Assembly: GCA_037783545.1 (NCBI GenBank)
Contig: JBBELK010001244.1
Coordinates: 124,001-188,000 of the forward strand
Source: Henricia sp. BOLD:AAB3569
Lineage: Eukaryota; Echinodermata; Asteroidea; Spinulosida; Echinasteridae
Length of the DNA stretch: 64,000 bases
Reading direction: 5' to 3'
How positions within the stretch are numbered: the stretch's first letter is position 1; the number at the start of each line of letters is the position of its first letter. Below are positions 2,442 to 59,700 of the stretch, piece by piece. Position numbers and translations under genes: made by a program. The notes below the pieces were generated by a model that did not search any database, was not told the DNA's origin, and saw only the letters and a program-made list of their open reading frames with translations.

Positions 2442-2675
2442 TTAGCACGACTGTTCCCTGGATGTTATAAGTTTAAATACCAACTCTGGCTGACCGGTTT
2501 GCTCGGTGGGTGTTTGACAAGCCAACATCCTTAAAACCGACCGTCTAATGACCGACCCATCTTTTGAATGACAAAACATGCCAAAATGGTCTGGTTGCGG
2601 AAACTTGTCTGTACACAACACGCAGCAATCGTCCAGCCCTATAGCTTGTTCAATATTTACAAATGTACTTGAAAC

Positions 2676-2921
2676 TAAATGCTTTTCCTTATCCAATGTA
2701 CTCACATCTTTCTTTGGACAAGTTGTCAAGACTTTGTAGTCTTCTAAGTGGTATCCCTTGGTACTCAAGTAGACCATGGCCATTAGGATGGGGTGATCAG
2801 CAAGAAATCGTCGTGTTAGTGCGTCACCACCGGGCAGACGTATACGCAGTGTGGTAGTAGACTCCGAACAAGTCTCGCTTGGCTCATCTGGGAGTTGTTG
2901 CTCTAACGATAACAGTAGCGC
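2676..2921 (-). pseudogene. FAF1-like UBX-domain exon fragment
   Basis: The minus-strand frame encodes a stretch starting LLLSLEQQLPDEP, then TTTLRIRLPGGDALTRRFLA, then KGYHLEDYKVLTTCPKKDVS. This is the organisation of the C-terminal part of FAF1, where a short SLEQ-x-LP-x-EP linker precedes the UBX domain, a ubiquitin-like fold that binds the ATPase p97/VCP. A plausible 3' splice site (CATTCAG) sits just upstream at 2922-2928. The family's FPR loop motif used for p97 binding reads CPK here. Homology stops at about position 2676 and the frame runs on into unrelated sequence, with no UBX C-terminus and no other FAF1 domains found nearby. It could be an orphan exon of a gene with very long introns, but a decayed partial copy is more likely. 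Confidence 0.5.
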
Positions 2922-3119
2922 CTGAATGAGAATAACGCCCAAATAAGTCACACTGAGTTCTTGTCTAATGCCTGAATGGGAATAATTGCCCAAATCAAAA
3001 CAGCCATTACATTCACAGTACAGAGTACCTTGATTTTTCCGACTGTGATTATATGTTGCTTCATCCTAATTGTTGGCGTTACTAGCTGTACTTCAGGGGA
3101 CAGATTTCTGCAATCATGA

Positions 3120-18800: not shown

Positions 18801-20740
18801 CTTGACCCTATCAACCTACCTCATCTACACCACAGGAAACCGGCGTGCCTGGATTGCAGTTGTCATTATCGGAATCGCATTCGTAGCAAGTAATTGCTGA
18901 TAAAAAAGAAAAAGGAGTATTAAATTATTACATACTGCATGGCACAAATCTCGGATATCTGCCTCGTCTATACAGCTCTCTATCACCCTGGTGTTAAAGT
19001 GTTTAAAAATGTTCACCCATCTTTCCTCAGATCAACCAGTTAAAGGAGCATTTCCATTCTTTTCCAAAGGAGTGTGTCCTGATCACATCTTTGACACCCC
19101 ATTTTTCCATGGGTGTTGATATTTTGATACCGTATCATTTTGTCATATTTACCATTTTGAAATTTCGTGCTATCAATCTGTACATTTTCAAGGATCGTCA
19201 AAAAAACACTGATGTTTTGCAAACTAATTTATCCGTTCCATAAAGTAGTGCAGTGATTACACCAACCTTTTTGCTTTCACATCCACATCCCATGGATAGT
19301 ATTTTGGGGAGGCATTTTATATGATTGTTAGGTTAGAACACGCTCCTTTAATACACAGACAATAAAAGGATTCTGTGCAACCTTGGGACTGTGAATTATG
19401 TTATAAAGATTTATATTACAAAATTATTACAATCTTACCTTTTCCATACTTGACAAAACACAGCAGTACCAGTACCTGTGGAAAGGATGAAAATTACATC
19501 AGTGCAAGAAATAAAAAATAAATAAATCTTCCACTTAACATTGTGTGGACCGACACTAATTCCTTACTTCGTGTAAATTACTGTTGCCTGCTGTCGGACC
19601 ATCGAACTTGTCATTCGCCATTGGTAAGCCCGGTGGTCGAGTGGTTAAGACCTCTGCCTAGTATGCAGGAGGTCGTGGGTTCGAGTCCTGCCCATGCACG
19701 CTATGAGATTTTACCATGTTATTGAGGAACGCTCTTAGTATAGTGCATTTCCCAACAGGACACTGCCATCTGGGAATCACCAGAACTATTTCGCTTCATG
19801 TAGGTGGCTGCCTGGCCAAGGCACACAACCCTATCAGCAGTTAGATTGTGGCAATCCCCCTGCAGGGTACTCCTGGCGCTGTTGCCATTATTACCGCTGC
19901 CATCAGGGAATCACCAGAACTATTTCGCTTCATGTAGGTGGCTGCCTGGCCATGGCACACAACCCTATCAGCAGTTAGATTGTGGCATTCCCCCTACAGG
20001 GTTCTCCTGGCGCAGTTGCCATTATTACCGCTGCCATCAGGGAATCACCAGAACCATTTAGCCTCAACTATATAGGTGGCTACCTGGCCAAGGCACACAA
20101 CCCTATCAGCAGTTAGATTGTGGCATTCCCCCTACAGGGTTCTCCTGGCGCAGTTGCCATTATTACCGCTGCCATCAGGGAATCACCAGAACCATTTCGC
20201 TTCAACTAGGTGGCTGCTGGTCAGGCGCACAACCCTATCAGCAGTTAGATTGTGGCATTCCCCCTACAGGGTGCTCCTGGCACTGTTGCCATTATTACCG
20301 CTGCCATCAGGGAATCACCAGAACCATTTCGCTTCAACTATAGGTGACTGCCTAAGGCGCCCAACCCTATCAGCACTTAGATTGTGGCATTCCCCCTAAC
20401 AGCTCCCCAAATATTGCTTGGGTTGTCAAGGCAATTGAGATTAAGTGTCTTGCCAATGGACACAAACACATTGGCACAAGTTTGGCTCGAACCCATAACC
20501 TTCCGATCACGAGCACGGCTGTATACCCACTAGACCACACTATATCTTTGTGTGTTTGTTTTAGTTCTGCATGTTTTGTGAGTTCATGTTTTCAACAGAA
20601 AACGGCAAAGACATCTTCCAAGATGATCTTTTCCATGGCAAGTTGTACTAAAATTTGACGACTATTTTCAAAACCACATCAGATGCAGAACAGTGTGATT
20701 CGATATATACTACACTCACCAATACAAGTTGAGACTTCAT
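15874..20740 (-). CDS. Ly6/uPAR - mucin repeat - PAN/apple protein (5 coding exons)
   Basis: Coding exons, 5' to 3' on the minus strand: 20740-20720, 19475-19439, 18896-18820, 17663-16640 and 16118-15874, joining in frame to 467 aa with GT-AG introns. Residues 1-19 (MKSQLVLVLVLLCFVKYGK) are a signal peptide. Residues 23-101 form a Ly6/uPAR three-finger domain, starting CYEC and ending CFYCCDVGLCN. Residues ~108-375 are seven 36-aa Thr/Ser repeats (SQQDATTSGVTSVT type), likely O-glycosylated. Exon 5 (residues 387-467) resembles a PAN/apple domain (IVHCSLQCSHHDGCEFFAF, then RCFLG) and ends KRV-stop, with no membrane or GPI segment. It is probably secreted. The exon 4 donor and exon 5 acceptor share the same phase, supporting the fusion. 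A transcript ending within exon 4 (stop downstream of the donor) is an alternative. Confidence 0.8.
16700..17460 (-). repeat. Coding 108-bp minisatellite (mucin-like), seven copies
   Basis: Seven in-frame 108-bp units inside exon 4 of the Ly6-PAN gene. They differ mainly at one position after TVTQ (C, D or G) and in the last two copies. The alternating D/G variants imply expansion by multi-unit steps. The antisense frame is also open throughout because the unit length is a multiple of three; I do not regard it as a gene. Confidence 0.95.
17900..18120. repeat. Short AAGTGG tandem repeat and hairpin in intron 3
   Basis: Imperfect units of ~20-35 bases built on GGGCAAAGTGGCTTTTGG, followed by a CGTCTCATGAGACG palindrome. 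A related block, with the neighbouring TTAAAACCGACCT-type sequence, is at 26690-26910 downstream of the fibrinogen-related gene, so this is a dispersed element with an internal minisatellite. Confidence 0.8.
18345..18515. mobile_element. Foldback element in intron 3 of the Ly6-PAN gene
   Basis: The ~55-base arms beginning AGAAATCTG and ending CAGATTTCTTC are inverted copies containing CTCATTAAAATACA and its mirror, around a ~50-base loop. No coding capacity. Confidence 0.75.
19080..19345 (+). repeat. Dispersed repeat family A, copy 3
   Basis: Carries CATGGGTGTTGATATTTTGA, TTTGCAAACTAATTTATCC and the other family landmarks. Located in intron 2 of the Ly6-PAN gene. Confidence 0.8.
19624..19702 (+). 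repeat. tRNA-derived SINE head
   Basis: Has a polymerase III A box (GGTCGAGTGGTTAAGAC) and a B box (GGTTCGAGTCC) at tRNA-like spacing. The flanks do not fold as a complete tRNA, and the same sequence recurs degenerately near 3165, so I read it as a SINE head rather than a tRNA gene. Confidence 0.65.
19766..20400. repeat. ~134-bp tandem repeat, about five copies
   Basis: CCATCAGGGAATCACCAGAA recurs at about 19766, 19900, 20034, 20172 and 20304 (spacing 132-138). It lies in intron 1 of the Ly6-PAN gene, just after the SINE head, and may be an amplified SINE tail. Confidence 0.9.
20470..20546 (-). repeat. tRNA-derived SINE head, antisense
   Basis: On the minus strand an A box (TGGTCTAGTGGGTATAC) and a B box (GGTTCGAGCC) are spaced as in tRNA. 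It faces the head at 19624, so the ~134-bp repeat array is bracketed by two inverted tRNA-like heads. Confidence 0.55.
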
Positions 20741-25159: not shown

Positions 25160-25306
25160 CGGTATAACAGCTTGCTTTGAGAGATCGTCATCACTCGCAT
25201 CATCGGAAAGGAAGAGAACAGAACAGATTACGGCCAAGGGCTGGATCTGATGAACACACTCATCATACATTTCTCTGCATTTGCCGTTTTCCTTCCTGAC
25301 CTCAAG

Positions 25307-26299
25307 ATGATATTGATCTTAGCAACCCTCTGCTCTTTCTTGGCTCTAGCAAATGGAAAACCTGAAACCACCGGTCCAAGTCATCAAATGACGTCAACTT
25401 TCTATCGGGCAGACAACCAAGCTTTGCAGAATTACGTTTATCTGGAGGTGAAGGTATCTTCTCCTGTCATTTGCGGCCGTGAATGCTCAATGGACTATCA
25501 ATGTGCATCGTTCAACTATTATGCAGAGAGAAAGTTGTGTGAATTAAGCGATACTACAAGAATCCAACACCCGTGTGACTTCGTGCATCTGCCAGGAGCA
25601 GTCTACTTTGATAAAAACTTTGAAACAATTTCCTTCTCGACACGTTATGATGGAAATTTCACCAGCTGTCAGGAGCTGCTAACAGCTGGTCACTATGACA
25701 ATGGCATCTACACCATCTATCCTGCTGGACTGACCAATGGCTTACAGGTCTACTGTGACATGGAGACTGCTGGGGGAGGGTGGATCGTCTTTCAGAGGCG
25801 TCAAGATGGCTCGGTTGACTTCTACCGTACCTGGGATGAATACAAGCATGGCTTTGGCAATCTGTGTGGTGAGTTCTGGCTTGGGAATGAAGCTCTACGC
25901 ATCCTGACTCAGACAGGACAATGGCAGCTGCGAGTGGACTTGTGGGACTGGGAAGGAAACACAGCTTGGGCCGAGTACGGTGAGTTTGCCATCTCAGGCG
26001 ATAAGTATACACTCCACTTTGGCTTATACAATGCTGGCAGTACAGCTGGCAGTGGTATGGACCAACACCAGAATATCAATTTCTCTACCAAGGATCGTGA
26101 TAACGATCTCGCAACAGCAAATTGTGCACAATATTTTCACGGTGCCTGGTGGTTTAAGAATTGCTTCTCGAGTCATCTCAATGGTAAATACGTGCATTAC
26201 GATCAGGATTTTCTGAGTACAGATGGTACAGGCATACGCTGGATGTCTTGGAAAAATGAATCCTTGAAACAATGCACTATGAAAATAAGACAAACTTAG
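25307..26299 (+). CDS. Intronless PAN plus fibrinogen-related domain protein
   Basis: A single uninterrupted frame encodes 330 aa from the Met at 25307. An in-frame Met at 25250 would add 19 aa, but the better signal peptide (MILILATLCSFLALANG) starts at 25307. Residues ~30-107 resemble a PAN/apple domain (VICGRECSMDYQCASFNYY). Residues ~110-328 form a full fibrinogen-related C-terminal domain: SCQELL at the start, YCDMETAGGGWIVFQRRQDG, the Ca-site-type DRDND followed by NCA, and a C-terminal MKIRQT. In ficolins, tachylectins and FREPs this domain binds acetylated sugars, so a secreted recognition lectin is the likely role. The absence of introns in a gene of this class is notable; single-exon retrocopy origin is possible. 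The upstream region is duplicated at 23470-23815. Confidence 0.88.
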   Translation: MILILATLCSFLALANGKPETTGPSHQMTSTFYRADNQALQNYVYLEVKVSSPVICGRECSMDYQCASFNYYAERKLCELSDTTRIQHPCDFVHLPGAVYFDKNFETISFSTRYDGNFTSCQELLTAGHYDNGIYTIYPAGLTNGLQVYCDMETAGGGWIVFQRRQDGSVDFYRTWDEYKHGFGNLCGEFWLGNEALRILTQTGQWQLRVDLWDWEGNTAWAEYGEFAISGDKYTLHFGLYNAGSTAGSGMDQHQNINFSTKDRDNDLATANCAQYFHGAWWFKNCFSSHLNGKYVHYDQDFLSTDGTGIRWMSWKNESLKQCTMKIRQT

Positions 26300-26915: not shown

Positions 26916-27169
26916 ATGAACATTAATTGTTTTACTCATTTCTCAAAGACTATAGCACTTCAGAAGTTACAATGTACCGGTATGTATAAACCTGTGAACA
27001 TTTCTGATTTTCTAAATACCATTCATGTATTCTAACTTGAAGGGGCCTTGGAATAAATGAACTTTTTTCTCATTTACACATGTACATGTAGTACTCATAC
27101 TCGTACTCCAGTACAACGAGTACCACTAAGTACTTGGCCCTAACTCGATTTTCAGTATTTGAAAAAAAA

Positions 27170-29080
27170 ATAAGTACCGATACTCGGCTCGTACTCACAC
27201 CTTCGTACTCCGACTCGTCCCCAAACTCGGCATCTGGTACTCGGTGTACTCAATAAGTACCGATAGTCGGTTCGTACTCACACCTTCGTACTCCGACTCG
27301 TCCCCAAACTCGGCATCTGGTACTCGGTGTACTCAATAAGTACCGATACTCGGCTCGTACTCACACCTTCGCACTCGGACTCGTCCCCGAACTCGGCATC
27401 TGGTACTCGGTGTACTCAATAAGTACCGATACTCGGTTCGTACTCACACCTTCGTACTCCGACTCGTCCCCAAACTCGGCATCTGGTACTCGGTGTACTC
27501 AATAAGTACCGATACTCGGCTCGTACTCACACCTTCGTACTCGGACTCGTCCCTCAACTCGGCATCTGGTACTCGGTGTACTCAATAAGTACCGATACTC
27601 GGCTCGTACTCACACCTTCGTACTCGGACTCGTCCCTAAACTCGGCATCTGGTACTCGGTGTACTCAATAAGTACCGATACTCGGCTCGTACTCACACCT
27701 TCGTACTCGGAATCGTCCCTCAACTCGGCATCTGGTACTCGGTGTACTCAATAAGTACCGATACTCGGCTCGTACTCACACCTTCGTACTCTGACTCGTC
27801 CCTGAACTCGGCATCTGGTACTCGGTGTACTCAATAAGTACCGATACTCGGCTCGTACTCACACCTTCGTACTCGGACTCGTCCCTAAACTCGGCATCTG
27901 GTACTCGGTGTACTCAATAAGTACCGATACTCGGCTCGTACTCACACCTTCGTACTCGGACTCGTCCCCGAACTCGGCATCTGGTACTCGGTGTACTCAA
28001 TAAGTACCGATACTCGGCTCGTACTCACACCTTCGCACTCGGAATCGTCCCCTAACTCGGCATCTGGTACTCGGTGTACTCAATAAGTACCGATACTCGG
28101 CTCGTACTCACACCTTCGTACTCGGACTCGTCCCTCAACTCGGCATCTGGTACTCGGTGTACTCAATAAGTACCGATACTCGGCTCGTACTCACACCTTC
28201 GTACTCGGACTCGTCCCTCAACTCGGCATCTGGTACTCGGTGTACTCAATAAGTACCGATACTCGGCTCGTACTCACACCTTCGTACTCCGACTCGTCCC
28301 TCAACTCGGCATCTGGTACTCGGTGTACTCAATAAGTACCGATACTCGGCTCGTACTCACACCTTCGTACTCGGAATCGTCCCCAAACTCGGCATCTGGT
28401 ACTCGGTGTACTCAATAAGTACCGATACTCGGCTCGTACTCACACCTTCGTACTCTGACTCGTCCCTGAACTCGGCATCTGGTACTCGGTGTACTCAATA
28501 AGTACCGATACTCGGCTCGTACTCACACCTTCGTACTTGGACTCGTCCCTAAACTCGGCATCTGTTACTCGGTGTACTCAATAAGTACCGATACTCGGCT
28601 CATACTCACACCTTCGTACTCCGACTCGTCCCCAAACTCGGCATCTGGTATTCGGTGTACTCAATAAGTACCGATACTCGGCTCGTACTCACACCTTCGT
28701 ACTCGGACTCGTCCCCGAACTCGGCATCTGGTACTCGGTGTACTCAATAAGTACCGATACTCGGCTCGTACTCACACCTTCGCACTCGGAATCGTCCCCT
28801 AACTCGGCATCTGGTACTCGGTGTACTCAATAAGTACCGATACTCGGCTCGTACTCACACCTTCGTACTCGGACTCGTCCCTCAACTCGGCATCTGGTAC
28901 TCGGTGTACTCAATAAGTACCGATACTCGGCTCGTACTCACACCTTCGTACTCGGAATCGTCCCCAAACTCGGCATCTGGTACTCGGTGTACTCAATAAG
29001 TACCGATACTCGGCTCGTACTCACACATTCGTACTCGGACTCGTCCCCAAACTCGGCATCTGGTACTCGGTGTACACAAT
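27170..29080. repeat. 83-bp satellite, about 23 copies
   Basis: Head-to-tail 83-bp units containing CGTACTCACACCTTCGTACT and AAGTACCGATACTCGGCTCG. Most variation sits at one short segment (ACTCGTCCCxxAACTCGG). The units are themselves built from GTACTCG-like submotifs. Confidence 0.97.
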
Positions 29081-31057: not shown

Positions 31058-31955
31058 TTTGAAGCGCCATTGTTGAAGCGCCATTGTTAAAGCGCCATTG
31101 TTAAAGCGCCATTGTTGAAGCGCCATTGTTGAAGCGCCATCGTTGAAGCGCCATCGTTGAAGCGCCATCGTTGAAGCGCCATTCTTGAAGCGCCATTGTT
31201 GAAGCGCCATCGTTGAAGCGCCATCGTTGAAGCGCCATCGTTGAAGCGCCATCGTTGAAGCGCCATCGTTGAAGCGCCATAGTTGAAGCGCCATAGTTGA
31301 AGCGCCATAGTTAAAGCGCCATTGTAGAAGCGCCATTGTAGAAGCGCCATTGTAGAAGCGCCATTGTAGAAGCGCCATTGTAGAAGCGCCATTGTAGAAG
31401 CGCCATTCTTGAAGCGCCATTCTTGAAGCGCCATTCTTGAAGCGCCATTCTTGAAGCGCCATTGTTGAATTAGCGCCATTCTTGAATTAGCGCCATTCTT
31501 GAATTAGCGCCATTCTTGAATTAGCGCCATTCTTGAAGCGCCATTCTTGAAGCGCATTGTTGAATTAGCGCCATTCTTGAAGCGCCCTTGTTGAAGCGCA
31601 TTGTTGAAGCGCCTTGTTGAAGCGCCATTCTTGAAGCGCCATTGTTAAAGCGCCATTGTTAAAGCGCCATTGTTAAAGCGCCATTGTTGAAGCGCCATTG
31701 TTTAAGCGCCATTGTTTAAGCGCCATTGTTGAAGCGCCATTGTTGAAGCGCCATTGTTTAAGCGCCATTGTTTAAGCGCCATTGTTTAAGCGCCATTGTT
31801 GAAGCGCCATTGTTGAAGCGCCATTGTTGAAGCGCCATTGTTGAAGCGCCATTGTTGAAGCGCCATTGTTTAAGCGCCATTGTTTGAGCGCCATTGTTTA
31901 AGCGCCATTGTTTAAGCGCCATTGTTAAAGCACATTGTTAAAGCACATTGTTAGA
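31058..31955. repeat. 15-bp satellite, roughly 60 copies
   Basis: Tandem GAAGCGCCATTGTT-type 15-mers with local variants (CGTT, TAGA, CTTG, TTTA) that occur in blocks, and occasional units with a TTA insertion. Frames stay open across it because 15 is a multiple of three; not a gene. Confidence 0.97.
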
Positions 31956-39424: not shown

Positions 39425-41738
39425 TACAAATACACGGGTCAAATGCCCCACCCTGGGGCATGAAAAACGTGACCAAACCCCCACCTACGGGGTGGCGCAG
39501 CGCTGGGGGGAAACAATTGATAGGCCTAGGTGCATAAACGTCTTATACATGTGCATGTTGGGACCTACCAACATAAATTATGACCAACTCGACCGTTTCT
39601 TCCTCCATGATGATGCTCCAACTTGACCAAACAAGAAAAGTTCGCGGCAATTCGCGAAAGTGAAGGCGAATGAATTATCAGCACAACTAACAAATATGAA
39701 CAGATGAAGTTAAACATTTCTGCTTTTCGAAATTGTCACGACACATTGTCAATTAATTAAGTGATTATTTTCCAAATAAAAACAGAATAACTACTCACCT
39801 CCTCGCTCGCCATGTGCGGGAAGCCATGATGGATAGACTGGTTCCTGGACTTCATATTCCACGTCCATACGACTACGAAGTTGGTCTGGGAACTAGACTA
39901 GGTTGCTAGCCGGCTGGATCCGAATTAGTGGCTATGGCTGTTGCTATGCTATTTTTAAGGACTTTCATTGTCCACCCGTAGCAACAGCATAGCAACATCC
40001 AGCCGGTGTTTATGCAATGCTTATGAATATTCATTATGTTTAATACGCCCCTGGATCGATAGACTGTTTCCCAGTCCACATATTCCACATTCAAACTACA
40101 TGTACTAGTAGTTGGTGGGTTTAAAAAGCAGTGCAATTATGAATATTCATTGCTTTAATAATTAGCAGCTTGTTGATTGGCTGGGTATATGTAAACTCGA
40201 GCAGAGGTAGACTCATTACAACCCTGTCTTAGTGGCTTGTTGAAACTTTTGACTAACTCGCGAAACCCGTTTAACCAGGGGCCAATTTCATGGCGCTGCT
40301 AAGCACAAAAATTTATTTTGCAAAAATGGATTGCAAGCCAAAATCGTAAGTGATGTGTATTGAAATATTGAAAGGTATTCTCCTACTCTTGCGAAGAACA
40401 CAAGTTGGCGTATAATTTTGGCTTGTAATACATTTTTATAAAACAAAAAAATTCTGTGCTATGCAAATGTTTGTGCTTAGCAGCGACATGAAATTGTCCC
40501 CAGGTCTCAGTAGTTAGTTGACACTTTTGGACTAACTCGCGAAACCTGTTTGACCAGGGCCCAATTTTATAGAGCTGTTTAACCGAGCGTCAGGCTATTT
40601 CATAGACATCGTTAACGGTAAGCAACTGAAAACCTGCCTTAACTGCAGAGCAAAATTTTGCTTAAGATCGTGACGCAACAATGGCGGTTTCCAAGCACGC
40701 GCATGCTTAAGCACGCCGTGGTCGTGAAATAGCCTTAACGTTAGCACAACCTTTCTGCTTCAGTAAGCACACGTTTTCAGCTAGCGCTTCATCAGCTCTA
40801 TGAAATTGGGCCCTGGTAGAGAATTCATCTCAAATACATTTCGATGAAAGGGTACATGTACATTCAGTTAATAAAAAACAACTTTGCAATATTTTAATAG
40901 TAAGAGAGTTTATTATTTACAACGATTTCAATAAAAAGATGCACAACAAAACTGTAAATTTATGAAACTTTACACATTTATTATGCGATTATTAAATGAG
41001 TAGATAATCAATAAAAAATGGAGTCCTTATTGCAGTAAATGTTTCTACACTTATTAAAATAGATTAAAAGTTCCAAGGCGTCATATCTAAAAATTACAGT
41101 TTGAAGTTTTAAAAATGCTATAGACTGTCGAAGTGAATACGTCATCTTTTGTTAGTTGCCTAGGCAATGGCTCTACACTAAAAATAACTGAACCGTGTCC
41201 CTGTGCTTTGCAATGGTACTTTTTCCCGACGGCCATGATAGTTTAGAGCCAATTGCCATGGCAACCACGTCAACTCATACTTCAGCTGTCTATTGTGGAG
41301 TGTATGCATTCTGCTTGAATGATTTTGTATATGATTAGACAATTGTATCTGCATGACAGACACACCTTGTCACAGGAATAGGTGAAAACAGTCATTTGAA
41401 GAAAACAAAATTCAAAAATTGACAACATACCAATATCCCTAACTTATTGCGAGTATTGTATATGGTTTTCGTTATAAAACGTGCAGATACCTAACACCCA
41501 CAGTTTATTACCCTTGATAGCCTGCGTTTCATGTGATAATCGTCCAAACACAAGGAATCTTTGGCGAAGTCTGCATTGTCTGATGACGTCATCTGCAAGA
41601 AATGATTGTCAATGTGCGAAGTGTGCAATGCTGCATCGACAACCAGAATACATCATGTCAGGAATGCCTTAAAATCATTGAAATAAACCCAGAAGCGCTT
41701 CATTTAACTCCCGAGGTCTTGGGGAAACCAGAGGGAGT
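39425..41738. other. Intergenic, rich in foldbacks
   Basis: Two successive foldbacks lie at 40278-40501 (GGGGCCAATTTCATGGCG ends) and 40557-40813 (GGGCCCAATTTTATAGAGCT ends), each preceded by a similar ~48-base sequence (GACTAACTCGCGAAACC). Repeat family B lies at 41275-41400. No gene recognised. Confidence 0.55.
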
Positions 41739-41748
41739 ATACCACTGT

Positions 41749-42210
41749 GCCTCATAGCTCAGCTGGTAGAGCATCTGCCCGGTGTGTCAGAGGTCTGGGG
41801 GAAACCTGAGGGAGTATACCACTGAGCCTCACAGCTCAGCTGGAAGAGCGTCTGCCCTGTGTGTCAGAGGTCTTGGGGGAAAACCTGAGGGAGTATACCA
41901 CTGTGCCTCATAGCTCAGCTGGTAGTGCGTCTGCCCGGTGTGTCTGAGGTCCTGTGTGGAAACCTGAGGGAGTATACCACTGTGCCTCATAGCTCAGCTG
42001 GTAGAGCGTCTGCCCGGTGTGTCCGAGGTCCTGGGGGGAAACCTGAGGGAGTATACCACTGTGCCTCACAGCTCAGATGGAAGAGCGTCTGCCCTGTGTG
42101 TCAGAGGTCTTGGGGAGAACCTGAGGGAGTATACCACTGTGCCTCATAGCTCAGCTGGTAGAGCATTTGACCGGTGTGTCAGAGGTCTAGGGTTCGAATC
42201 CCGATAAGGC
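41749..42210 (+). repeat. Tandem array of 78-bp tRNA-like units, six copies
   Basis: Each unit holds GCCTCATAGCTCAGCTGGTA (tRNA 5' half with A box). Only the last unit (42141-42210) also has a B box (GGTTCGAATCC) and a 3' end (ATAAGGC) that pairs with GCCTCAT. Its anticodon loop cannot be closed at seven bases, so it is a pseudo-tRNA or SINE head rather than a working tRNA gene. Confidence 0.85.
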
Positions 42211-42559
42211 TCTTAGGACTTTTCTCTCATTCGATGTCTCTGAAATGTACTCTCAATTTGTTTCCCAACAAGTCCATTTTGAAACTAACTTCAACTTAGA
42301 ATGAAAGAAACGGTACATTTATTACAAGATGCAAACCGCCCCAATTAAATTTTGACCACGATGACTTTACAATTGTTGTCCTGATTGTAATAATCACCTT
42401 AAGATGAGCTGTAAGCCTGCAGATGGAAGGAATCAATCCACTGTACATGAGAGAACGTCAAACTGTAGGGAGAGACCAAAAGTCAACGTGCCGAGGTGCA
42501 ATGCGACATTGACGTCTGAAAATGTTATCTTTAAGCCTCCAATAATAAAATGGTTGCAT

Positions 42560-43010: not shown

Positions 43011-43590
43011 GTACACATGCATCATACAGACAGAAAGACATCCAGAATGCAATTTGAAGAGTTTTATCGCAAAATGCAATAAACGCCACCCAATAAAATG
43101 AGATAATGGCGTCAGTACATTCTTGATTGGCAGTCCTATACATTTGTCAAATACATTATTGGCAAACTGTGTTATATCTCACAAAACCTGTTTTTCTTAT
43201 TGGAATTTGCCATTGACTGCAGTGCTTAGTTGTAATACAAAATGGGAGTTTTCTCAAAATGGCAAAAATGGATATATAGCGTTTTGCGATCAAACTCTGG
43301 ACTTTAAACTTTGACCACGGTGCGCTGACCTTTCCAACGCGCAGCCAATGCATAATGACGTATCACATCAGCCCCAAGTTACCGGGGTGGAATTCTCCGT
43401 TTTGGAAAGATCTGCCATTGGGACCTTGTGCAATACGATAAGCGCAGCATACAAGCTCGGTTTGCAAATATCCTTCTATTCAGCCATATTTTTATGATTT
43501 CAAATTTAATATCAACAAATGCATCTCTGAAGGATCAAGAAAACTTCTGAAATGAAAAAAAAATCTTAAATGAAAAAAAAACCCACCCAG
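43011..43590. other. Non-coding, partly similar to intron 5 of the Kunitz gene
   Basis: GAAGAGTTTTATCGCAAAA and GCAAACTGTGTTATATC recall, in inverted form, 12600-12740 (AGAGTTTCATCGCAAAACGC), so this is a dispersed repeat. No gene. Confidence 0.4.
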
Positions 43591-43730
43591 TTAAAGGCAC
43601 AGGCTCGTCAGCAATGCGCGCCCGCCAAATTCGTGCTCGAAACACGCAGCTCCATGCCTTTGCTATGGAGCTGCGTATTGCGTGGCACACATTTGGCGGG
43701 CGCGCATTGCTGACGAGCCTGTGCCTTTAA
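43591..43730. mobile_element. TTAA hairpin element, copy 4
   Basis: 140 bp, both TTAA ends and complete arms; almost identical to the copy at 21282-21421. Confidence 0.92.
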
Positions 43731-44443
43731 GTATAAAATTAAAATGCGGACATTGACAATTTTAACAGCGGCAGAATTACAGAGAGCAAGTCGTAAATGT
43801 TTCTTTAAAATCTATACACAATATCTACAAGTAAAGTGCAAACACGTTTAATATACAAGATTGTTTGCACCAGCAAAGAGACTTACAGTTGTCATCAAGA
43901 TCTTTTTGGAGCCTTTTAAATTAAGAGGTCGTCCAAAGTTGTCGACATTTTCACAGTTATTTTTAAGACCGCACTCCCTCGTCCATAAGACGTGTTGGAT
44001 CAAAAAGCAATCCCATCCATCCTGCACTTAATGACCTTTAAACCAGAAAGTGTTGCAATATCTCGGTGCCATTTTGAAAAGCACCAGTGGACCACCAAAT
44101 GTTCAGCAGAGTTCTCTAATCTACTGGTGCTTCTGCAGCTGACCAGCATACAATTCAGGTTAATTTCGACCCCTGGTTATGGCAAAAGTGTCCATACAAT
44201 TGCATGAGCACCAAAATAACCGTTTACATTTTTAATACCTGGCGTATCTTTTGCCATCATCATTAATAAAACAGACCACTTGAAGTTAACGTAGTATTTC
44301 TGGACATAAACTTAATCACTGATCAACTAACCCCAACCTACCATTGCACAATGACAAGGCGATCGTCCCTCTCCAACAAAATATAATATCAGCATGATTT
44401 CTCCGAGTCCATTCGAGGGCTGAACACTGTCGACCCCGCTAGT

Positions 44444-47400
44444 CTATTTCTTTGCATAGGATATTTTCATAGCAGCCGTTGGCGTAATCTTGAAGCCTTG
44501 CAGCGCGTCTTTAGCTATCCCTGATTGCGTCTCATTCTCAAACTCAACGAAGGCAATATCGTGTCGACCTGGAACAAGTCGGACCTCTTTGAAGCCTTGG
44601 AATCTGGGAAGGAACGACTCGAAGATTTAATTCATCGCAGTCGACAAGAATGATAGTCTAAAAAGTAACGAGCTTTGCAAAAATCGGTCTAGTTTTTGTG
44701 ACCTCGCAGCAATGCACGCGCCAAATTTCGTGCCACGAAATACGCAGCTCCATTCCTTTGCTATGGAGCTGCATATTTCGTGGCTCAAATTTGGCGCGCA
44801 CATTGGTTTCTTTTTAACCTAACAATCATATAAAATACCTCCCCAAAATACTATCCATGGGAAGAAAACAGGAAATTTGCAATCTCCAATTTGGATGTGG
44901 AAGCAAAAAGGTTGGTGTAATCACTGCACTGCTTTATGGAACGGATAAATTAGTTTTAAAAACACTCTTAAGCAAGGGTAATTTTAGGCCCAAAACTAGG
45001 AAGCAAGAATTTAAGGCAGTACTCACTGTTGGAAGAGCATCTTGAGCATTAGTTCGTTGGTTTCCTCAGGGAGGTTGGTCAGGAAGAGGATGGAGTTGGG
45101 CTGGTCTGGCATCGGCATTGCTACACAGAGGGACAACATACACAATATACTGGTTAGATTGGAATAGCATCTTGTGCATGAGGAGGTTGGTTTCCTCAGG
45201 GAGGTTGGTCAGGAAGAGGATGGAGTTGGGCTGGTCTGGCATCGGCATTGCTACACAGAGGGACAACATACACAATATACTGGTTAGATTGGGATAGCAT
45301 CTTGAGCATGAGGAGGTTGGTTTCCTCAGGGAGGTTGGTCAGGAAGAGGATGGAGTTGGGCTGGTCTGGCATCGCTACACAGAGGGACAACATACACAAT
45401 ATACTGGTTAGATTGGGATAGCATCTTGAGCATGAGGAGGTTTGTTTCCTCAGGGAGGTTGGTCAGGAAGAGGATGGAGTTGGGCTGGTCTGGCATCGGC
45501 ATTGCTACACAGAGGGACAACATACACAATATACTGGTTAGATTGGAATAGCATCTTGAGCATGGGTTCATTGGTTTCCTCAGGGAGGTTGGTCAGGAAG
45601 AGGATGGAGTTGGGCTGGTCTGGCATCGGCATTGCTACACAGAGGGACAACATACACAATATACTGGTTAGATTGGAATAGCATCTTGAGCATGAGTTCA
45701 TTGGTTTCCTCAGGGAGGTTGGTCAGGAAGAGGATGGAGTTGGGCTGGTCTGGCATCGGCATTGCTACACAGAGGGACAACATACACAATATACTGGTTA
45801 GATTGGGATAGCATCTTGAGCATGAGGAGGTTGGTTTCCTCAGGGAGGTTGGTCAGGAAGAGGATGGAGTTGGGCTGGTCTGGCATCGGCATTGCTACAC
45901 AGAGGGACAACATACACAATATACTGGTTAGATTGGGATAGCATCTTGAGCATGAGGAGGTTTGTTTCCTCAGGGAGGTTGGTCAGGAAGAGGATGGAGT
46001 TGGGCTGGTCTGGCATCGGCATTGCTACACAGAGGGACAACATACACAATATACTGGTTAGATTGGAATAGCATCTTGAGCATGAGTTCATTGGTTTCCT
46101 CAGGGAGGTTGGTCAGGAAGAGGATGGAGTTGGGCTGGTCTGGCATCGCTACACAGAGGGACAACATACACAATATACTGGTTAGATTGGGATAGCATCT
46201 TGAGCATGAGTTCATTGGTTTCCTCAGGGAGGTTGGTCAGGAAGAGGATGGAGTTGGGCTGGTCTGGCATCGCTACACAGAGGGACAACATACACAATAT
46301 ACTGGTTAGATTGGGATAGCATCTTGAGCATGGGTTCATTGGTTTCCTCAGGGAGGTTGGTCAGGAAGAGGATGGAGTTGGGCTGGTCTGGCATCGCTAC
46401 ACAGAGGGACAACATACACAATATACTGGTTAGATTGGAAATAATACAAAGTAGGGAGGGGCTTGGTGAGGGGGGTGGGGCTTGGTAAGATGAAAAGGCT
46501 TGGTGAGGGATGGGGCATGGTGAGGGGAGGGGCATGGTGAGGGGAGGGGCATGGTGAGGGGAGGGGCATGGTGAGGGGAGGGGCTTGGCGAGAAGCTTAG
46601 TAATGTACCTGGAGGTTGCTGCATACCCATTGGTGGAGGTTGACCCATCATGGGGTGGGGCATCATAGGAGGCGGGGCTTGGTTCATCGCTGCCGCGGCG
46701 GCTGCTGCGGCTGCCGCTGCCTTCGCCTCAGCCTTCTTCCCCCTCTTAGTTTGAACTGCAACAATCAACAAATCGTTAATACATGACATGTCAACAACCG
46801 AAACATTTTCACATAATTACAGACTGTATTAAAGTCACAGGCTCGTCAGCAATGCGCGTGCGCCAAATTCGTGCCACGAAATACACACCCCATAGCACAG
46901 GCATGGAGCTGCGTATTTCGTGACACAAATTTGGAGCGCACGCATTGCTGACGAGCCTCTGCCTTTAACTAAAACCATTCTGCACTTATTTGGAGTCGAG
47001 CAGCACTGCAGTTTGCTATGCTTTACATGTAGATGGTACTAGCAAAATCTATTTACAACTGGTATTCGGCGTTTCCCATCAAAAGAGGCCTTGACATTAA
47101 CCGAGGCCACCAAGGCCAATAATTAACCAAGGCCACCAAGGCCAATGGCCGTATGCTCTGCTGAGTTGGCCCTGCAGCCTCTTCAAGATATACACTTTCT
47201 GAGGCCAACTTTGCCAGCATGCCCTATCCCAGGTCTTGACATTAACCAAGGCCAATGGCCGTATGCTCTGCTGAGTTGGCCCTGCAGCCTCTTCAAGATA
47301 TACACTTTGAGGCCAACTTTGCCAGCATGCCCTATCCCAGGTCTTGACATTAACCAAGGCCAATGGCCTCATGCTCTGCCGAGTTGGCCATGCTACCCTT

Positions 47401-50400
47401 TAAGATATACACTGTCCGAGGCCAACTTGGCCAGCATGCCCTATCCCAGGTCTTGACATTAACCAAGGTTTTACATCAGTTGGCCTCAGCGACCTTTGAG
47501 TTTCACATAAAATTAAGGTCAAAGTGACCTGCCCTTTTAGCACACTACAACATTTTGAGGAATATTTGAGGTCCCAATTTCTTCTTTGTTTTTATTTCTA
47601 TTAATACAAGGTTCTTGTTAAAAACAAGGTCATCTGCGAAGTGTCAAGGGCGTTTTTTTTTTTTTCCTCAGCCTAAAGCCTAGCGTACATTGACATTACA
47701 ACTGGAAGCAACTAGTGGCAACTGGTGTTTCCGGCACCTAGAAGCAACTCGCGGCAACTGATCAGTTGCTTAAAAAGGTCGATGTACACGCACTTGCAAC
47801 TACTGGCAACTGGAAAAATCCCAGTTGCCGCGAGTTGCTCATATTCTACTTTCTGGCAACTAGTTGTGTACCCAGTTGCGGTCAGTTGCGTCGATGTACG
47901 CGTACTTGCAACTAGTTGCTGCTAGTTGCTCGTGTGCATCTGATCATGTGCGCGCACATCGACAGCAACTGCAAACAACAGTTGCTTCCAGTTGCAAGGT
48001 CAATGCACTCAACGCTTTACCGAGTTGCCGTGTCGATGTGCGCGCTTCAGAAAACCTAAAAAAATCCATGCACGGTTTTTGTGTTGAATGAATGGTAAAA
48101 AAAATTGTATCCCAAATACATGTACCTTTAATTGGCAATTTCTCCCACAATTTTACTCGGGGGAAAAAAAATCAACTTGCTATCAACACAATGACAATGT
48201 CAGTACTCAAAACGTACCTGGTGCTGGCTCCGGTTTCTTTTTCTCCGGCCGTTTTTCTCTCTGGACGAACGTACCCTGCAACTTGGCAATAGCGTCCGAT
48301 TGTGACTTGGCGTATTGAATTCTCTACAATAAAAAACAAGGTGAAATGGATGAGTATACCACCGTGTCTCATAGCTCAGCTGGTAGAGCATCTGCCCGGT
48401 GTGTCAGAGGTCTTGGGGGAAACCTGAGTGAGTATACCACTGTGCCTCATAGCTCAGCTGGTAGAGCATCTGCCCGGTGTGTCAGAGGTCTTGGGGGAAA
48501 CCTGAGGGAGTATACCACTGTGCCTCATAACTCAGCTGGTAGAGCATCTGCCCGGTGTGTCAGAGGTCTTGGGGGAAACCGAGGGAGTATACCACTGTGC
48601 CTCATAGCTCAGCTGGTAGAGCATCTGCCCAGTGTGTCAGAGGTCTTGGGGGAAAACCTGAGGGAGTATACCACTGTGTCTCATAGCTCAGCTGGTAGAG
48701 CATCTGCCTGGTGTGTCAGAGGTCTTGGGGGGAAACCTGAGGGAGTATACCACTGTGCCTCATAGCTCAGGTGGTAGAGCATCTGTCCGGTGTGTCGAAG
48801 GTCTTGGGGGAAACCCGAGGGAGTATACCACTGTGCCTCATAGCTCAGCTGGTAGAGCATCTGCCTGGTGTGTCAAAGGTCTTGGGGGAAACCCGAGGGA
48901 GTATACCACTGTGCCTCATAGCTCAGCTGGTAGAGCATCTGCCCGGTGTGTCAGAGGTCTTGGGGGAAACCGAGGGAGTATACCACTGTGTCTCATAGCT
49001 CAGGTGGTAGAGCATCTGTCCGGTGTGTCAAAGGTCTTGGGGGAAACCTGAGGGAGTATACCACTGTGTCTCATAGCTCAGCTGTTTAAAATCTTTAGTA
49101 AGACACTGGATATAACTGAGTGCATGGACCAAAACCTTAACATACCATAGGTTTCTCATAGAAGGGAAATCCCTGCATGGACCGTAGCGCATTGGTGGCG
49201 CTGTTTATATCCTTGAAGACGACGAACGCCTGACCTCTCATTTTGAGCGTCTTGAGAGCGACAATGTCGAGAATTTGACCAAACTGGGAGAAGATGGCGT
49301 AGAGAGATTTCTTCAACTCTGCAAACAATCGGAGAAAAGTTAATGATTAAAACTCTAATTCAATAAAAACAGTTAGAGCTGAGTTAAAGTATTGATCTGC
49401 AAGTTTTCAGATCTTATAAACTTATAAAATGTGCAAAAATTAAGATACGTATGTGGACAATTTCAACAAAATGTCAATGACATTAGGGATGCAGGCTCGT
49501 CAATGCGCGCGCAAGGAACAAATTCATGTCACGAAATTCAAAGCTCCATACAAATGCATTTAGCGGTGAATTTCGTGGCACAAATTTCGTGTTCCTCGCG
49601 TGCGCATTGACGAACCTGCGTCTTTAACCACGTGAATTTTTACCTCAATTTAAAGGACTTGAAACGCTCTATAAAATGAGGGTTTTTTTTATTGCCAGGG
49701 GTTTCTTTGAACTACTTTAAGGCTAAAAAGTGTTTCTTTTACATAAACTTTAGGACCAGAAAAAATATCTACAGACCATCGCATAGTCAGTCAGCTTTCC
49801 TTTCATACAGTGGATTGTTGTCATTTTGCCTCCAAATTAGAATCACACCCACAAATTTCAAGCTGGTTGTGTCCTGTAGTGGTTTTAGATATTCTCGATT
49901 AGAAAACAAATAAAAAGCACAACTTACATTGCCGTTTTTCAATCAAAAACGTATATTTCCGACACTCTTTCACGAATAAATATCTCCTTACGATGTTGCC
50001 ATGCTGCTATGAGGTTGGCTTGGGCGCGCTCCAGCATTTTCGGAGTCGACTCCGCGTATCCGATTCCAAAAAAGATTCCCAATTCCATTCGAAATCGATT
50101 CCATTTTTCGTATGAAAACATACGTGTACATTGCGATTTCTTATTGTGTCAAGGACAACCCATTCTAATCGATTCCAGTGTGGAGTCGCCCAAGCTAGCG
50201 TAGAATGGAGCCCAAAGCTTAACGTGGTTTTTCTTTTGAACGTACAGTTGGTGTGACTCTACGGAGGCCCAAGGAGAACGTCCGGGAGGCCCATGGTGGC
50301 GCTCTCATGTCACGTGCATTTATACAGCGCGGCACGTAACCGTTTAGTTTCGTTAGACGTTCTCTTTGGGCGTCCGTCAATGCACAACTACACGTTAGTA

Positions 50401-51204
50401 AAAATGATATCTTGATAAGGAGTTGACAACAGATTTCTTCGTCGAAGATTGTCGGAAATAGACGTTTTTGATTCAATAACGGCAATGTAAGTAGTGCTTT
50501 TTATTTGTCTTCTGATCAAGAATATATAAAACCACTACAGGAAACAACTAGCTGGAAATAGTTGGGTGTGATTCTAATTTCGAGGCAAAATGACAACAAT
50601 CCACTGTATGAAAGTGGTACCTTCTGTCCCTACGGGAACCCGTAGGGACAGAATCATTCTGTCTAACCATCGCATTGATGTTGAATTCTCTCTGACACCA
50701 ATTAACTTGTGTCAGAAATGTCACGTTACAATCAAAATCAAACTTAATGAAAACATACCATGGAGGTCGTTCTCTCAAGAATTCTGTGCAATGATTGGTT
50801 TTTCCCAATGAATCTTCTGAACAGTAGAGAAAGCGTACGTTATTTTATCGTTAGATTTTGTGCGGAAAATTTTTCATCGTCGAAATATCAGCGATTAGAC
50901 ACGACGTCATACCGCATTACCATGGAATAACCACAACATGGCGGTTTCATGAACTAACCAGCATATATTGAGAATCCAACACCAATGCGATGGTCGGCGG
51001 CCATTTAAAAAAAAACATTTCAGTCAATTTTACCAGTTTTGATTCAGAAAACGAGGCTAATCATTGCGACCATGTTTTGCTTCCTCTAAAACAACCATGA
51101 CTTCCACTTCTAAATTAAAGATTTTTTCTTTCCAACTTACCATCTTTCTTGACCTTCTCATTCAGATTGTTGATGTAAATCGACGGATTCGGTGGCACAT
51201 TCAT
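44444..51204 (-). CDS. SNRPA: U1A/U2B''-type snRNP RNA-binding protein (6 coding exons)
   Basis: Coding exons on the minus strand: 51204-51141, 49318-49146, 48323-48218, 46755-46609, 45120-45027 and 44603-44444, joining in frame to 247 aa with GT-AG introns. It has two RNA-recognition motifs. RRM1 (residues ~8-90) has RNP2 IYINNL and RNP1 RGQAFVVF, plus [12 protein letters not shown] and RSMQGFPFY. The linker is basic, then poly-Ala (11-12 Ala), then Met/Pro-rich. RRM2 has RNP2 ILFLTNL and RNP1 HDIAFVEF and ends ISYAKK-stop. The family binds U1 snRNA loop II and/or U2 snRNA loop IV in the spliceosome, in the nucleus. Length falls between fly SNF and human U1A; the protein may serve both roles. 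Exon 5 is the 3'-most of eleven tandem copies. A CATTGCAG acceptor 22 bases before the ATG hints at a 5'UTR intron. Confidence 0.93.
44702..44805. mobile_element. TTAA hairpin element, copy 5 (eroded ends)
   Basis: The central palindrome (TACGCAGCTCCATTCCTTTG and mirror) is clear but the TTAA termini are lost. Sits in the last intron of the U1A-like gene, ~100 bases before the last exon. Confidence 0.8.
44812..44985 (-). repeat. Dispersed repeat family A, reverse copy
   Basis: Reads, on the minus strand, as the right two-thirds of the family. Located between the exon 5 donor and the eroded hairpin in the U1A-like gene. Confidence 0.8.
45027..46441 (-). repeat. 11-copy exon-containing tandem array (124/130-bp unit)
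   Basis: On the minus strand each unit holds a pyrimidine-containing 3' splice site (CCCTCTGTGTAG) followed by coding sequence for [19 protein letters not shown]. Acceptors lie just above 45120, 45250, 45374, 45504, 45634, 45764, 45894, 46024, 46148, 46272 and 46396. The six-base length variants come from one or two ATGCCG units. Only the 3'-most copy (exon 5) continues MLKMLFQ into a GTGAGT donor; the other ten continue into CCAATCTAACCA then GTATAT, a weak donor. Confidence 0.95.
46500..46590 (-). repeat. 17-bp CT-rich repeat upstream of the exon array
   Basis: GGGGAGGGGCATGGTGA units (CCCCTCCCC on the transcript strand) between exon 4 and the exon array, giving a strong pyrimidine-rich tract in the pre-mRNA. 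Confidence 0.9.
46829..46968. mobile_element. TTAA hairpin element, copy 6
   Basis: 140 bp, TTAA at both ends, in intron 3 of the U1A-like gene. Confidence 0.9.
47100..47465. repeat. ~115-bp tandem repeat, three copies
   Basis: GGTCTTGACATTAACCAAGG and CCAGCATGCCCTATCCCAG recur three times in intron 3 of the U1A-like gene, preceded by a short AGGCCACCAAGGCCAAT repeat. Confidence 0.9.
47685..48050. mobile_element. GTTGC-rich element, copy 2
   Basis: Shares AAGCCTAGCGTACATTGACA and repeated GGCAACTG motifs with 42560-43010. Ends ~170 bases before exon 3 of the U1A-like gene. Confidence 0.7.
48355..49085 (+). repeat. Tandem array of 78-bp tRNA-like units, about nine copies
   Basis: CATAGCTCAGCTGGTAGAGC recurs every ~78 bases. 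The units keep the tRNA A box but not a B box. The array lies antisense in intron 2 of the U1A-like gene, within 60 bases of exon 2. Confidence 0.9.
49486..49627. mobile_element. TTAA hairpin element, copy 7 (diverged)
   Basis: The arms ATGCAGGCTCGTCAATGCGC and mirror are recognisable but the centre and ends have drifted. Intron 1 of the U1A-like gene. Confidence 0.75.
49628..51140. other. Intron 1 of the U1A-like gene
   Basis: Contains a near-perfect short hairpin at 50622-50653 (TTCTGTCCCTACGGG and mirror). No additional exon recognised. Confidence 0.5.
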
Positions 51205-51404
51205 TTTGCTTAGAACTCAGTAACTGCAATGTAAACAAGGAAACATTCTTAGGCCAATACTGAAATGGACAACTAAACGGTGGAACCAAGTGTTCTTTTC
51301 GGTAAGAGTTGAGAAGTTCATCAGAAATGTTTTCCTACAAAATACATTGAACACGGCTTTCAGTGAATTTATATATTGGAATTGATAGCTTATTCAATTC
51401 TAAG

Positions 51405-54879: not shown

Positions 54880-55290
54880 TCGGATTCGAACCAGAGACCT
54901 CTGGCTCACCGGGCAGATGCTCTACCAGCATTGGGAAAAAATGAGGGAGTATACCACTGTGCCTCATAGCTCAGCTGGTAGAACATCTGCCCGGTGTGTC
55001 AGAGGTCTTGGGGAAACCTGATGGAGTATACCACTGTGCCTCATAGCTCAGCTGGTAGAGCATCTGCCTGGTGTGTCAGAGGTTTTAGGGGAAACCTAAT
55101 TTACTAGAGTATACCACTGTGCCTCATAGCTCAGCTGGTAGAGCATCTGACTGGTGTGTCAGAGGTCTTGGGGGGAAACCTAAGGGAGTATACCACTGTG
55201 CCTCATAGCTCAGCTGGTAGAGCATCTGCCTGGTGTGTCAGAGGTCTTGGGGGAACCTGAGGGAGTATACCACTGTGCCTCATAGCTCAG
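54880..55290. repeat. tRNA-like units, third array
   Basis: About four and a half plus-strand 78-bp units follow a minus-strand tRNA-like piece at 54880-54935 (B box GGTTCGAATCC read on minus). The two orientations meet head to head near 54935. Confidence 0.85.
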
Positions 55291-56777: not shown

Positions 56778-59700
56778 TCATGTTTTGACGGCTGTTTTGG
56801 CTTTACTACGATCGCTGAACAGATGTCGAATCATAATGACTTGTACTAGAAACGTTACTACCATAACAATAGTGGTGAGAATAGACCAAAAGGAGACTCG
56901 CTCGTAATTACGCTCGCCGATGTAACGATCACGGAACTCCGCGTTACGCAGCAGTCGTTGCGCTTGAACCGATTTCTGTAGGTTGTTTCTTACTACACTC
57001 AACGAAGTCTGAAAACGTGAGAAAAGGTACGCAGGATTACTAGCTATGTCAAGAAAACATACAAACTGCGATTGACCAAAGGCAAACCATTTTTACTCAA
57101 ACCCACCAATGGCAAACTAGCTAGACTCAAACCCACCAATGGCAAACCAGCTTGACTCAAACTGACCAATGGCAAACCAGCTAGACTCAAACCCACCAAT
57201 GGCAAACCAGCTTGACTCAAACCGACCAATGGTAAACCAGCTTGACTCAAACCGACCAATGACAAACCGGCTTGACTCAAACCGACCAATGGCAAACCGG
57301 CTTGACTCAAACCGACCAATGGCAAACCAGCTGGACTCAAACTGACCAATGGAAAACCATCTGGACTCAAACCGACCAATGGCAAACCAGCTAGACTCAA
57401 ACCGACCAATGGCAAACCAGCTTGACTCAAACCGACCAATGGCAAACCGGCTTGACTCAAACCGACCAATGGCAAACCAGCTGGACTCAAACTGACCAAT
57501 GGAAAACCATCTGGACTCAAACCGACCAATGGCAAACCAGCTTGACTCAAACCGACCAATGGCAAACCAGCTCGACTCAAACCGACCAATGGCAAACCAG
57601 CTCGACTCAAACCGACCAATGGCAAACCAGCTCGACTCAAACCGACCAATGGCAAACCAGCTTGACTCAAACCGACCAATGGCAAACCAGCTTGACTCAA
57701 ACCGACCAATGGCAAACCAGCTTGACTCAAACCGACCAATGGCAAACCAGCTTGACTCAAACCGACCAATGGCAAACCAGCTTGACTCAAACCGACCAAT
57801 GGCAAACCGGCTTGACTCAAACCGATCAATGGCAAACCAGCTCGACTTAAACCGACCAATGGCAAACCAGCTTGACTCAAACCAACCAATGGTAAACCAG
57901 CTTGACTCAAACCGATCAATGGCAAACCAGCTCGACTTAAACCGACCAATGGCAAACCAGCTTGACTCAAACCAACCAATGGTAAACCAGCTTGACTCAA
58001 ACCGACCAATGGCAAACCAGCTTTAACTCTACCTGTATTTCCTCCAGTCTTATATCTACGCTGTCCGTCACTGAGACTCCCGTCACAGCGTCGAGCCAAG
58101 CCGGTTTCTTTAATTCTTGTTCATCATCGTCGTAATTAAGGGCCAAGTCAAAGTAAACGAGCTACATGTCGAAAAAACAAATCTTATACAGAAAATTAGC
58201 ACTGAACCATCACAATAATGCCATGCACACTTAATCCCATGCTCTGTAAAGCGTAGCGTACATCGACATTGCAACTGGAAGCAACTGTGGTTTCTGGAAA
58301 CTAAAAGCAACTCGCGGCAACTGGGAGCAACTGATCAGTTGCCTAAAAAGGTTGATGTACGCGCACTTGCAACTACTGGCAACTGGAAAAAAACCCAGTT
58401 GCCGCGAGTTGCTCATGTTCTACTTTCTGGCGGTATTTTTTTGTATACATTGAACAAAGATTTTAAGGAAATTACCTCCTGGAATCAACAGATAATCCAA
58501 TTCCAAGATAGACTTCCCACATGCACATTTGTCGCAAATGTTGCTTTCCTAAAGACAAATCACATCTTGTGCATTCAGTTAGTGCACAAGATGAACCATT
58601 TATGCGCGCATGCAGCGCCCTCTATAGTCGTGCCTACGCACAGAGCACTAACGTCGTGATTTTGTCCATTACTCTCTGCAGTAATTTTATCATATATTTA
58701 TCTCAGAAATGCAACATTTCTGACGGAAGTGCAAGTGGGAAGTATATCTTAGAATTGGATGATCTGTTGATTCCAGGAGGTAATTTCTTTAAAATCAATG
58801 TATATGAAAAAATTACAAAACTACTTTAAACTTTATACAAATTTAATGTGTGATGTTCGTTAACATCGATACTCTTACCTTTTCCGATATCCTACTGAAT
58901 GAATTATCAAAACAAAAGAGATAATCGCCCGTTTCATGCGTTCCAAATCTACAGAGAAAAACAGCCAACAAAGAACAAAAGAAAAATGTTATGTTTGGGA
59001 AGTCTGTTGAAAAAAAACCAATTTTAGCAGGGAAAAATGTCAGTTGTAAAATTGAAAATAATATGGAATTGTCCAAAGTTGTCAACATTTTCACAGTTCT
59101 ACAGAGCGTAGTATTTTTCAAGACGCTCCATCCCTCCCCCGAAATACTACTTAAAATTGTTTGGTAACTACCGTGAAATGTCAACATTTTACAGTGCATG
59201 TAAAGTCCGATATTGCCCTCGACCCCCTTCCCCTGCTTTGAACAGCCCCTGTATTTGTAAAAAGAAAAACGTCACGAACAGGAAGTTACTTTTATAAAAC
59301 AAAAAGTGGAATCTATGAAAATCTAATAAATTCAGAAAATCGCTACCATCTGCTAATTTTATCATGTTTATTATTACCGATTGTAAACTCAACTAAACCA
59401 CTGCATACTTACGTGTACGTTCCTTCCTGTTTACGAGCCTCTGTTACCAGCGCTTTATTGGTCGGTGTCCTCAGGATAAAATTAATGTCCATATCGCCTC
59501 CTTCAATGACCTTAAGATAAACAAAACCAAGAACAGTGTGAAACAAAATATCATTGAGGTTCGAACCCGAGACCTCTGACATTTGAACCCGAGACCTCTG
59601 ACATTGGGCAGATGCTCATCCAGCCAAGCCGGGTTCAATTTCATTTCGGAAAGATTAGTACTCATCCCAAGGTCAACTCATAAAATTCTGTCGGTCGCAC

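Follow-up and report, generated by a model that had tools for sequence, protein, structure and literature searches.

The locus described here raises the question of which splice acceptor would be used when the same intron-exon boundary is present eleven times in one gene, and whether such repetition affects the gene that contains it. The gene is found in a stretch of 64,000 nucleotides from the sea star Henricia sp. BOLD:AAB3569 (contig JBBELK010001244.1, positions 124,001 to 188,000 of the forward strand), which is referred to as the window. All coordinates below are positions in the window.

The gene rebuilt from the window is on the minus strand and has six exons, whose 744 nt including the stop codon encode a protein of 247 amino acid residues. 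Exon 1 starts at the ATG and encodes the beginning of RRM1 (51141..51204), exon 2 encodes RRM1 (49146..49318), exon 3 the end of RRM1 and a linker (48218..48323) and exon 6 the remainder of RRM2 followed by the stop codon (44444..44603). These four exons were placed by the gene model and by tblastn with a U1A sequence as the query. Exon 4 (46609..46755), placed by the gene model, encodes an Ala/Pro-rich linker and exits in phase 1 at the donor CAG|GTACAT. Exon 5 (45027..45120), in which RRM2 starts, was placed by the gene model and by alignment of the repeat units; the complete exon is the 94-nt exon part of the last repeat copy, copy 11 (NELML, MLFQQ). GT donors follow exons 1 to 5, and AG acceptors precede exons 2 to 6. 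When copy 11 is used, introns 4 and 5 are 1,488 and 423 nt long, respectively. Pfam detected two RRM_1 stretches in the 247-residue protein, the second of which is C-terminal, as is characteristic of the U1A/U2B'' family. The last 87 residues matched the PDB chains of U2B'' (5.8e-41) and U1-A (1.2e-40). Among the 120 listed of 3,784 homologues found, the closest proteins were the U1A-like proteins of three sea stars: Patiria miniata, with 86% identity over 100% of the query, Acanthaster planci (81%) and Asterias rubens (78%). The initial annotation of this DNA as a U1A-type splicing-factor gene is right.

The array (45027..46440, minus strand) consists of 11 head-to-tail units of 124 or 130 bp, as initially annotated from the assembly sequence. 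TRF reported 11.0 copies with 96% matches at 45029-46440, and 11 acceptors (CCCTCTGTGTAG) were identified with spacings of 124, 124, 124, 130, 130, 130, 130, 130, 124, and 130. Given the 11 acceptors and the TRF result, the array is not a product of chance. Each unit comprises the last 44 nt of intron 4 (TTCCAATCTAACCAG...TGTGTAG) and the first 80–86 nt of exon 5. The 44-nt intron part is TTCCAATCTAACCAGTATATTGTGTATGTTGTCCCTCTGTGTAG, of which the second base (T or C) is the sole variable site across the 11 copies. Units 1 to 10 end with GATGCTA, and the intron part of the next unit follows directly; unit 11 continues past GATGCTA as GATGCTCTTCCAACA|GTGAGT. The difference between 124 and 130 bp is an in-frame indel of 6 nt (AMPDQP vs AMPMPDQP).

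Alignment of the units placed all copies on the minus strand. Those of 124 bp are copy 1 (46317..46440, with its exon part from 46396; NEPML, MLS), copy 2 (46193..46316; NELML, MLS), copy 3 (46069..46192; NELML, MLF), and copy 9 (45295..45418; NLLML, MLS). Those of 130 bp are copy 4 (45939..46068; NLLML, MLS), copy 5 (45809..45938; NLLML, MLS), copy 6 (45679..45808; NELML, MLF), copy 7 (45549..45678; NEPML, MLF), copy 8 (45419..45548; NLLML, MLS), and copy 10 (45165..45294; NLLMH, MLF). The 44-nt intron part of copy 11 is at 45121-45164. In the exon alignment, copy 11 alone has an A at column 70 and a C at column 85, whereas copy 1, at the other edge of the array, has no private site. Moreover, the end of native exon 5 and the start of the intron part have a 6-bp microhomology, TTCCAA, in common. 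It is located at 45029..45034 on the exon side and at 46435..46440 on the intron side of the likely duplication boundary, and is likely the join of the first duplication.

In a protein search with one 90-residue array frame (43 candidates, nine matches), the six matches other than P0125, P0127, and P0128 showed no second array. Past LFNQ, five of the six matched proteins run into unrelated residues and one ends there. P0129 resumes at FPGFKEVR beyond LFNQ, which suggests that the boundary between exons 5 and 6 is old.

The donor of exon 5 (ACA|GTGAGT, 45021..45026, minus strand) was identified with the gene model and with a simple scoring matrix of donor-site frequencies. Its score was 2.73, compared with 2.26 for the exon 4 donor. 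All other GTs in the array region scored -1 or lower, which agrees with the initial annotation that GTGAGT is confined to the 3'-most copy. The same annotation had the other ten copies end at a weak donor, GTATAT. GTATAT scored -2.78, and 30.5% of the GTs on both strands of the window scored equally well or better; its pairing with the U1 end was -1.4 kcal/mol, vs -5.2 kcal/mol for the native donor. It is found in 11 places, 30 nt upstream of every acceptor. Because it precedes every acceptor, that of copy 1 included, GTATAT is part of the branch-point region rather than the decayed end of an exon, and the initial annotation needs correction on this point. The span from acceptor to GTGAGT is 94 nt for copy 11, 224 nt for copy 10 and at least 348 nt from copy 9 upward. 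It is formally right that the spliceosome faces many acceptors, as had been claimed, but only 2 of the 11 (copies 10 and 11) are less than 300 nt from the sole donor-like site. Acceptor 1 is 212 nt from the exon 4 donor.

The products of each splice choice were computed. The entry phase of exon 5 is 1 and its exit phase is 2. With copy 11 as the only copy used, the product is the 247-residue protein. Joining any of copies 1 to 10 to copy 11 leads to a stop at codon 213 or 215 (10/10), in line with the earlier proposal that inclusion of two copies would shift the frame. Read-through from acceptors 1 to 10 to GTGAGT leads to a stop at codon 221–225 in all ten cases, and skipping of exon 5 to a stop at codon 193. 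When a copy is used with the GTATAT that follows it, the frame stays open as far as the normal stop in all ten cases, and the residues SN are inserted at the join. Decay is predicted for stops by the usual 50-nt rule. The distance from the read-through stop to the junction of exons 5 and 6 is 169–1,197 nt in nine of the ten forms and 39 nt in the copy 10 form; the nine would be targets of decay and the copy 10 form would be exempt.

The AG and the 17-residue frame are intact in 11 of 11 copies, as had been reported, but the copies differ in what they encode. Positions 169–194 were compared with the 120 listed of 3,784 homologues found. Of these 120, 116 have E at position 186, two have D and two have Q; at position 187, 114 have M or L and none has P; and positions 189 and 193 are always L and F, respectively. 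Residues unseen in the 120 listed homologues (L186, P187, H189, or S193) occur in copies 1, 2, 4, 5, 7, 8, 9, and 10, i.e., at least one in each of 8 of the 10 upstream copies, but in none of copies 3, 6, and 11, Q194 aside. Q194 is also absent from the 120 listed homologues, yet it is common to all 11 copies. Because the native exon, too, carries the unseen Q194, unseen residues alone are no proof of loss of function.

Counted by eye, the events that separate copy 11 from the array were three synonymous and no nonsynonymous, and those within copies 1 to 10 were one synonymous and four nonsynonymous, a contrast of small numbers without statistical significance (Fisher test, P = 0.071 one-sided and 0.14 two-sided). 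The comparison of the copies points to constraint on copy 11 and to less constraint on the other copies. All nine change events fall outside the 43 intron bases that are invariant (P = 0.027 on the assumption of independence, which hardly holds because the events cluster in a short exon stretch); the event-free intron bases are a weak hint of acceptor conservation in the array. The intact frame and AG were also considered as a sign of selection and rejected: with 96% TRF matches and only nine change events, the intactness of the copies says little. Finally, four adjacent changes, TGAA to CCTC (E to L), correspond to a ACCAACCTCC stretch that the unit contains 18 nt farther upstream, and may represent a single template switch.

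From its sequence, the array is most likely a "mirage," a duplicated intron-exon boundary that has expanded under little constraint and is inert or nearly so. All 11 units span the intron-exon boundary with a 44-nt intron end and a 5' exon part, and copy 11 is the boundary copy outside homogenization, as judged from its two private sites only. First, a tandem duplication would have fused the exon 5 end with intron 4 at the common TTCCAA, leaving the duplicate without the donor and the final bases of the exon. Growth to 11 units would have followed through unequal exchange. In splicing, exon definition would pair the last acceptor with GTGAGT, 94 nt away, and yield the 94-nt exon 5. This pairing is expected because the donor is present in the 3'-most copy only. 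Copies 1 to 10 are probably excised within the 1,488-nt intron 4, and transcripts spliced to an earlier acceptor would carry early stops. The donor and coding evidence makes copy 11 the likely choice. According to a transcriptome-wide survey, the choice among alternative 3' splice sites is biased upstream; long flanking introns merely reduce this bias, and the SL class, whose label indicates a short intron upstream and a long one downstream, behaves like intron definition (PMC9225289). With acceptor 1 at 212 nt from the exon 4 donor, such a bias could favor copy 1, against the choice of copy 11. The survey does not settle the choice between copies 1 and 11.

Arrays with a period of at least 10 and at least three copies, the U1A array counted, occupy 16.2% of the window; within the gene span their share is 38.7%. 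Most of intron 2 of the U1A gene consists of an array with a 78-bp unit, which stops ~30 nt short of exon 3, and in intron 4 a 17-bp repeat (46454-46592) is directly upstream of copy 1. Tandem growth is common in the window; therefore, the U1A array needs no special cause. Of the two options that had been offered for it, neutral minisatellite growth is the better supported, and it fits the published amphioxus mirage class.

The window also contains three arrays of a 77–79 bp unit with a tRNA-like core (TAGCTCAGCTGGTAGAGC) at 41713-42192, 48352-49084, and 54931-55290, the second of which occupies most of U1A intron 2. Rfam tRNA matches were found at 42140-42212, at the end of the first of these arrays, and at 19627-19699. 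Another array near an exon edge (57074-58023, a 30-bp unit with ~32 copies) lies immediately upstream of a p24/TMED-family exon (minus-strand open frame, 56778-57092). Two arrays are very long (27169-29080, 83 bp × 23; 31059-31952, 14 bp × 63). An open frame of 376 residues (16572-17702, minus strand) contains about seven Ser/Thr-rich repeats of 108 bp (36 residues) and had no Pfam match; further frames of this array are open, too. Fold-back (MITE-like) elements with partly common sequence (CGTGCCACGAAAT) are located in U1A introns 3 (46829-46968), 5 (44724-44792) and 1 (49483-49627), and a similar stretch is near 43600-43730. In addition, open frames with a PAN domain and a fibrinogen C-terminal domain (25181-26299, plus strand) and with a UBX domain match (2442-3065, minus strand) were identified.

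It is unlikely, against the mirage reading, that the array acts as a passive brake on splicing, in which the eleven equal acceptors would be bound by U2AF/U2 simultaneously, splicing of intron 4 would be slowed or misdirected and copy number would tune U1A output. It is just as doubtful that each extra unit adds a competing U2AF/U2 site and that the minisatellite, being hypervariable, sets the U1A level between individuals. Transcripts would be lost through early stops and decay, and binding by U1A would be unnecessary. The early stops of the ten read-through forms (codons 221–225), nine of them 169–1,197 nt before the junction, would fit such a brake. When the strong 3' splice site of a globin substrate is duplicated, both sites are occupied and the substrate splices poorly, and reduced occupancy raised its splicing (PMC5389562). 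The amphioxus mirages, however, are reported to leave regular splicing undisturbed (PMC3087553, PMC3902484). An assembly artefact, with a real copy number of one or few, is quite improbable. The intron-side flank is itself a 17-bp repeat, and the draft assembly of amphioxus was aberrant at the BflGb6 mirage (PMC3087553), but the differences between the copies are patterned, at least six kinds can be told apart among ten, and many further arrays are found within the window.

A decoy that feeds back on U1A, in which the level of U1A or U1 would shift the choice of copy, is very improbable, although the gene product is a U1A/U2B'' protein and self-regulated splicing is common among splicing factors (PMC9262138). 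Ten copies are without a donor-like site, and exact matches to the motifs ATTGCAC, ATTGTAC, and ATTGCAG are absent from the transcript strand of the array. Autoregulation of U1A by the PIE involves two U1A-binding boxes near the poly(A) site. On the transcript strand of 43400-51400, exact matches to ATTGCAC are found only at 50792 and 43434 and to ATTGCAG only at 51230; as an exact match, ATTGCAC thus occurs singly in this stretch. Moreover, the U1A autoregulation described in PMC6884704 acts on 3'-end processing/polyadenylation, and the regulatory decoy that had been proposed finds no positive support. Almost no weight is given to the view that copies 1 to 10 are productive alternative exons that use GTATAT and add two residues (SN) to RRM2. 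The frame is indeed kept to the normal stop in all ten, but 30.5% of the GTs of the window are as good as GTATAT or better, 8 of the 10 copies have residues beyond Q194 that are unseen in the 120 listed homologues, and inserted residues at the join occur in 0 of these 120.

The "mirages" of amphioxus include Adh3, the globins BflGb6 and BflGb9 and troponin C (PMC3087553, PMC3902484), and PGBD5, Adh, and troponin C have been likened to the mirage build (PMC3902484). Their mRNAs are regular and splicing is undisturbed according to the authors. Similar to the U1A array, they are minisatellite-like tandem copies across an intron-exon boundary. The acceptor mirage of BflGb6 has units of 150–160 bp, in 6 and 3 copies in two haplotypes; homogenization leaves out its boundary copies, and RT-PCR shows regular splicing (PMC3087553). 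Its unit, as described there, is also an intron 3' end with a 5' exon part, and its copy numbers of 6 and 3 compare with 11 in the U1A array. Different from the amphioxus mirages, the U1A array is in a sea star and in a gene for a U1/U2 snRNP protein, and is known here from the sequence of one assembly.

A minisatellite with multiple splice donors in human IFI6 (6-16) was reportedly described by Turri et al. in 1995. Downstream repeat units of IFI6 are reported to be in use and to give rise to three mRNA species (PMC4526556). IFI6 and the U1A array are alike in that a minisatellite provides repeated splice sites within one gene, but IFI6 repeats donors and the U1A array repeats acceptors. In potato RdRp, intron gain via tandem genomic duplication is reported (PMC4974935). 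This case is similar to the U1A array in the tandem duplication of a gene piece tied to splice sites; different from it, the U1A duplicates are without a donor and no new intron is evident. In mutually exclusive tandem exons, every copy has both an acceptor and a donor. They resemble the U1A array in being repeated similar exons, but the array region has one donor-like GT and copies 1 to 10 have none. No comparable case in echinoderms or in acceptor-bearing VNTRs was found in titles and abstract starts of the open-licence literature. The kind of repeat is already known; the host group and the gene appear to be new as far as that literature goes.

If real and transcribed, the array offers a natural experiment in which eleven equal acceptors face a single donor, and for which opposite predictions can be made. 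Intron definition would select the nearest acceptor, at 212 nt, and exon definition would select the last one, which gives the 94-nt exon. The U1A array is in this respect a natural test of how a cell chooses between identical splice sites. On the same condition, the range of mirages would also widen from amphioxus to an echinoderm. If this is true, boundary minisatellites and the route of intron gain proposed for mirages could be found more widely in deuterostome genomes that are rich in repeats.
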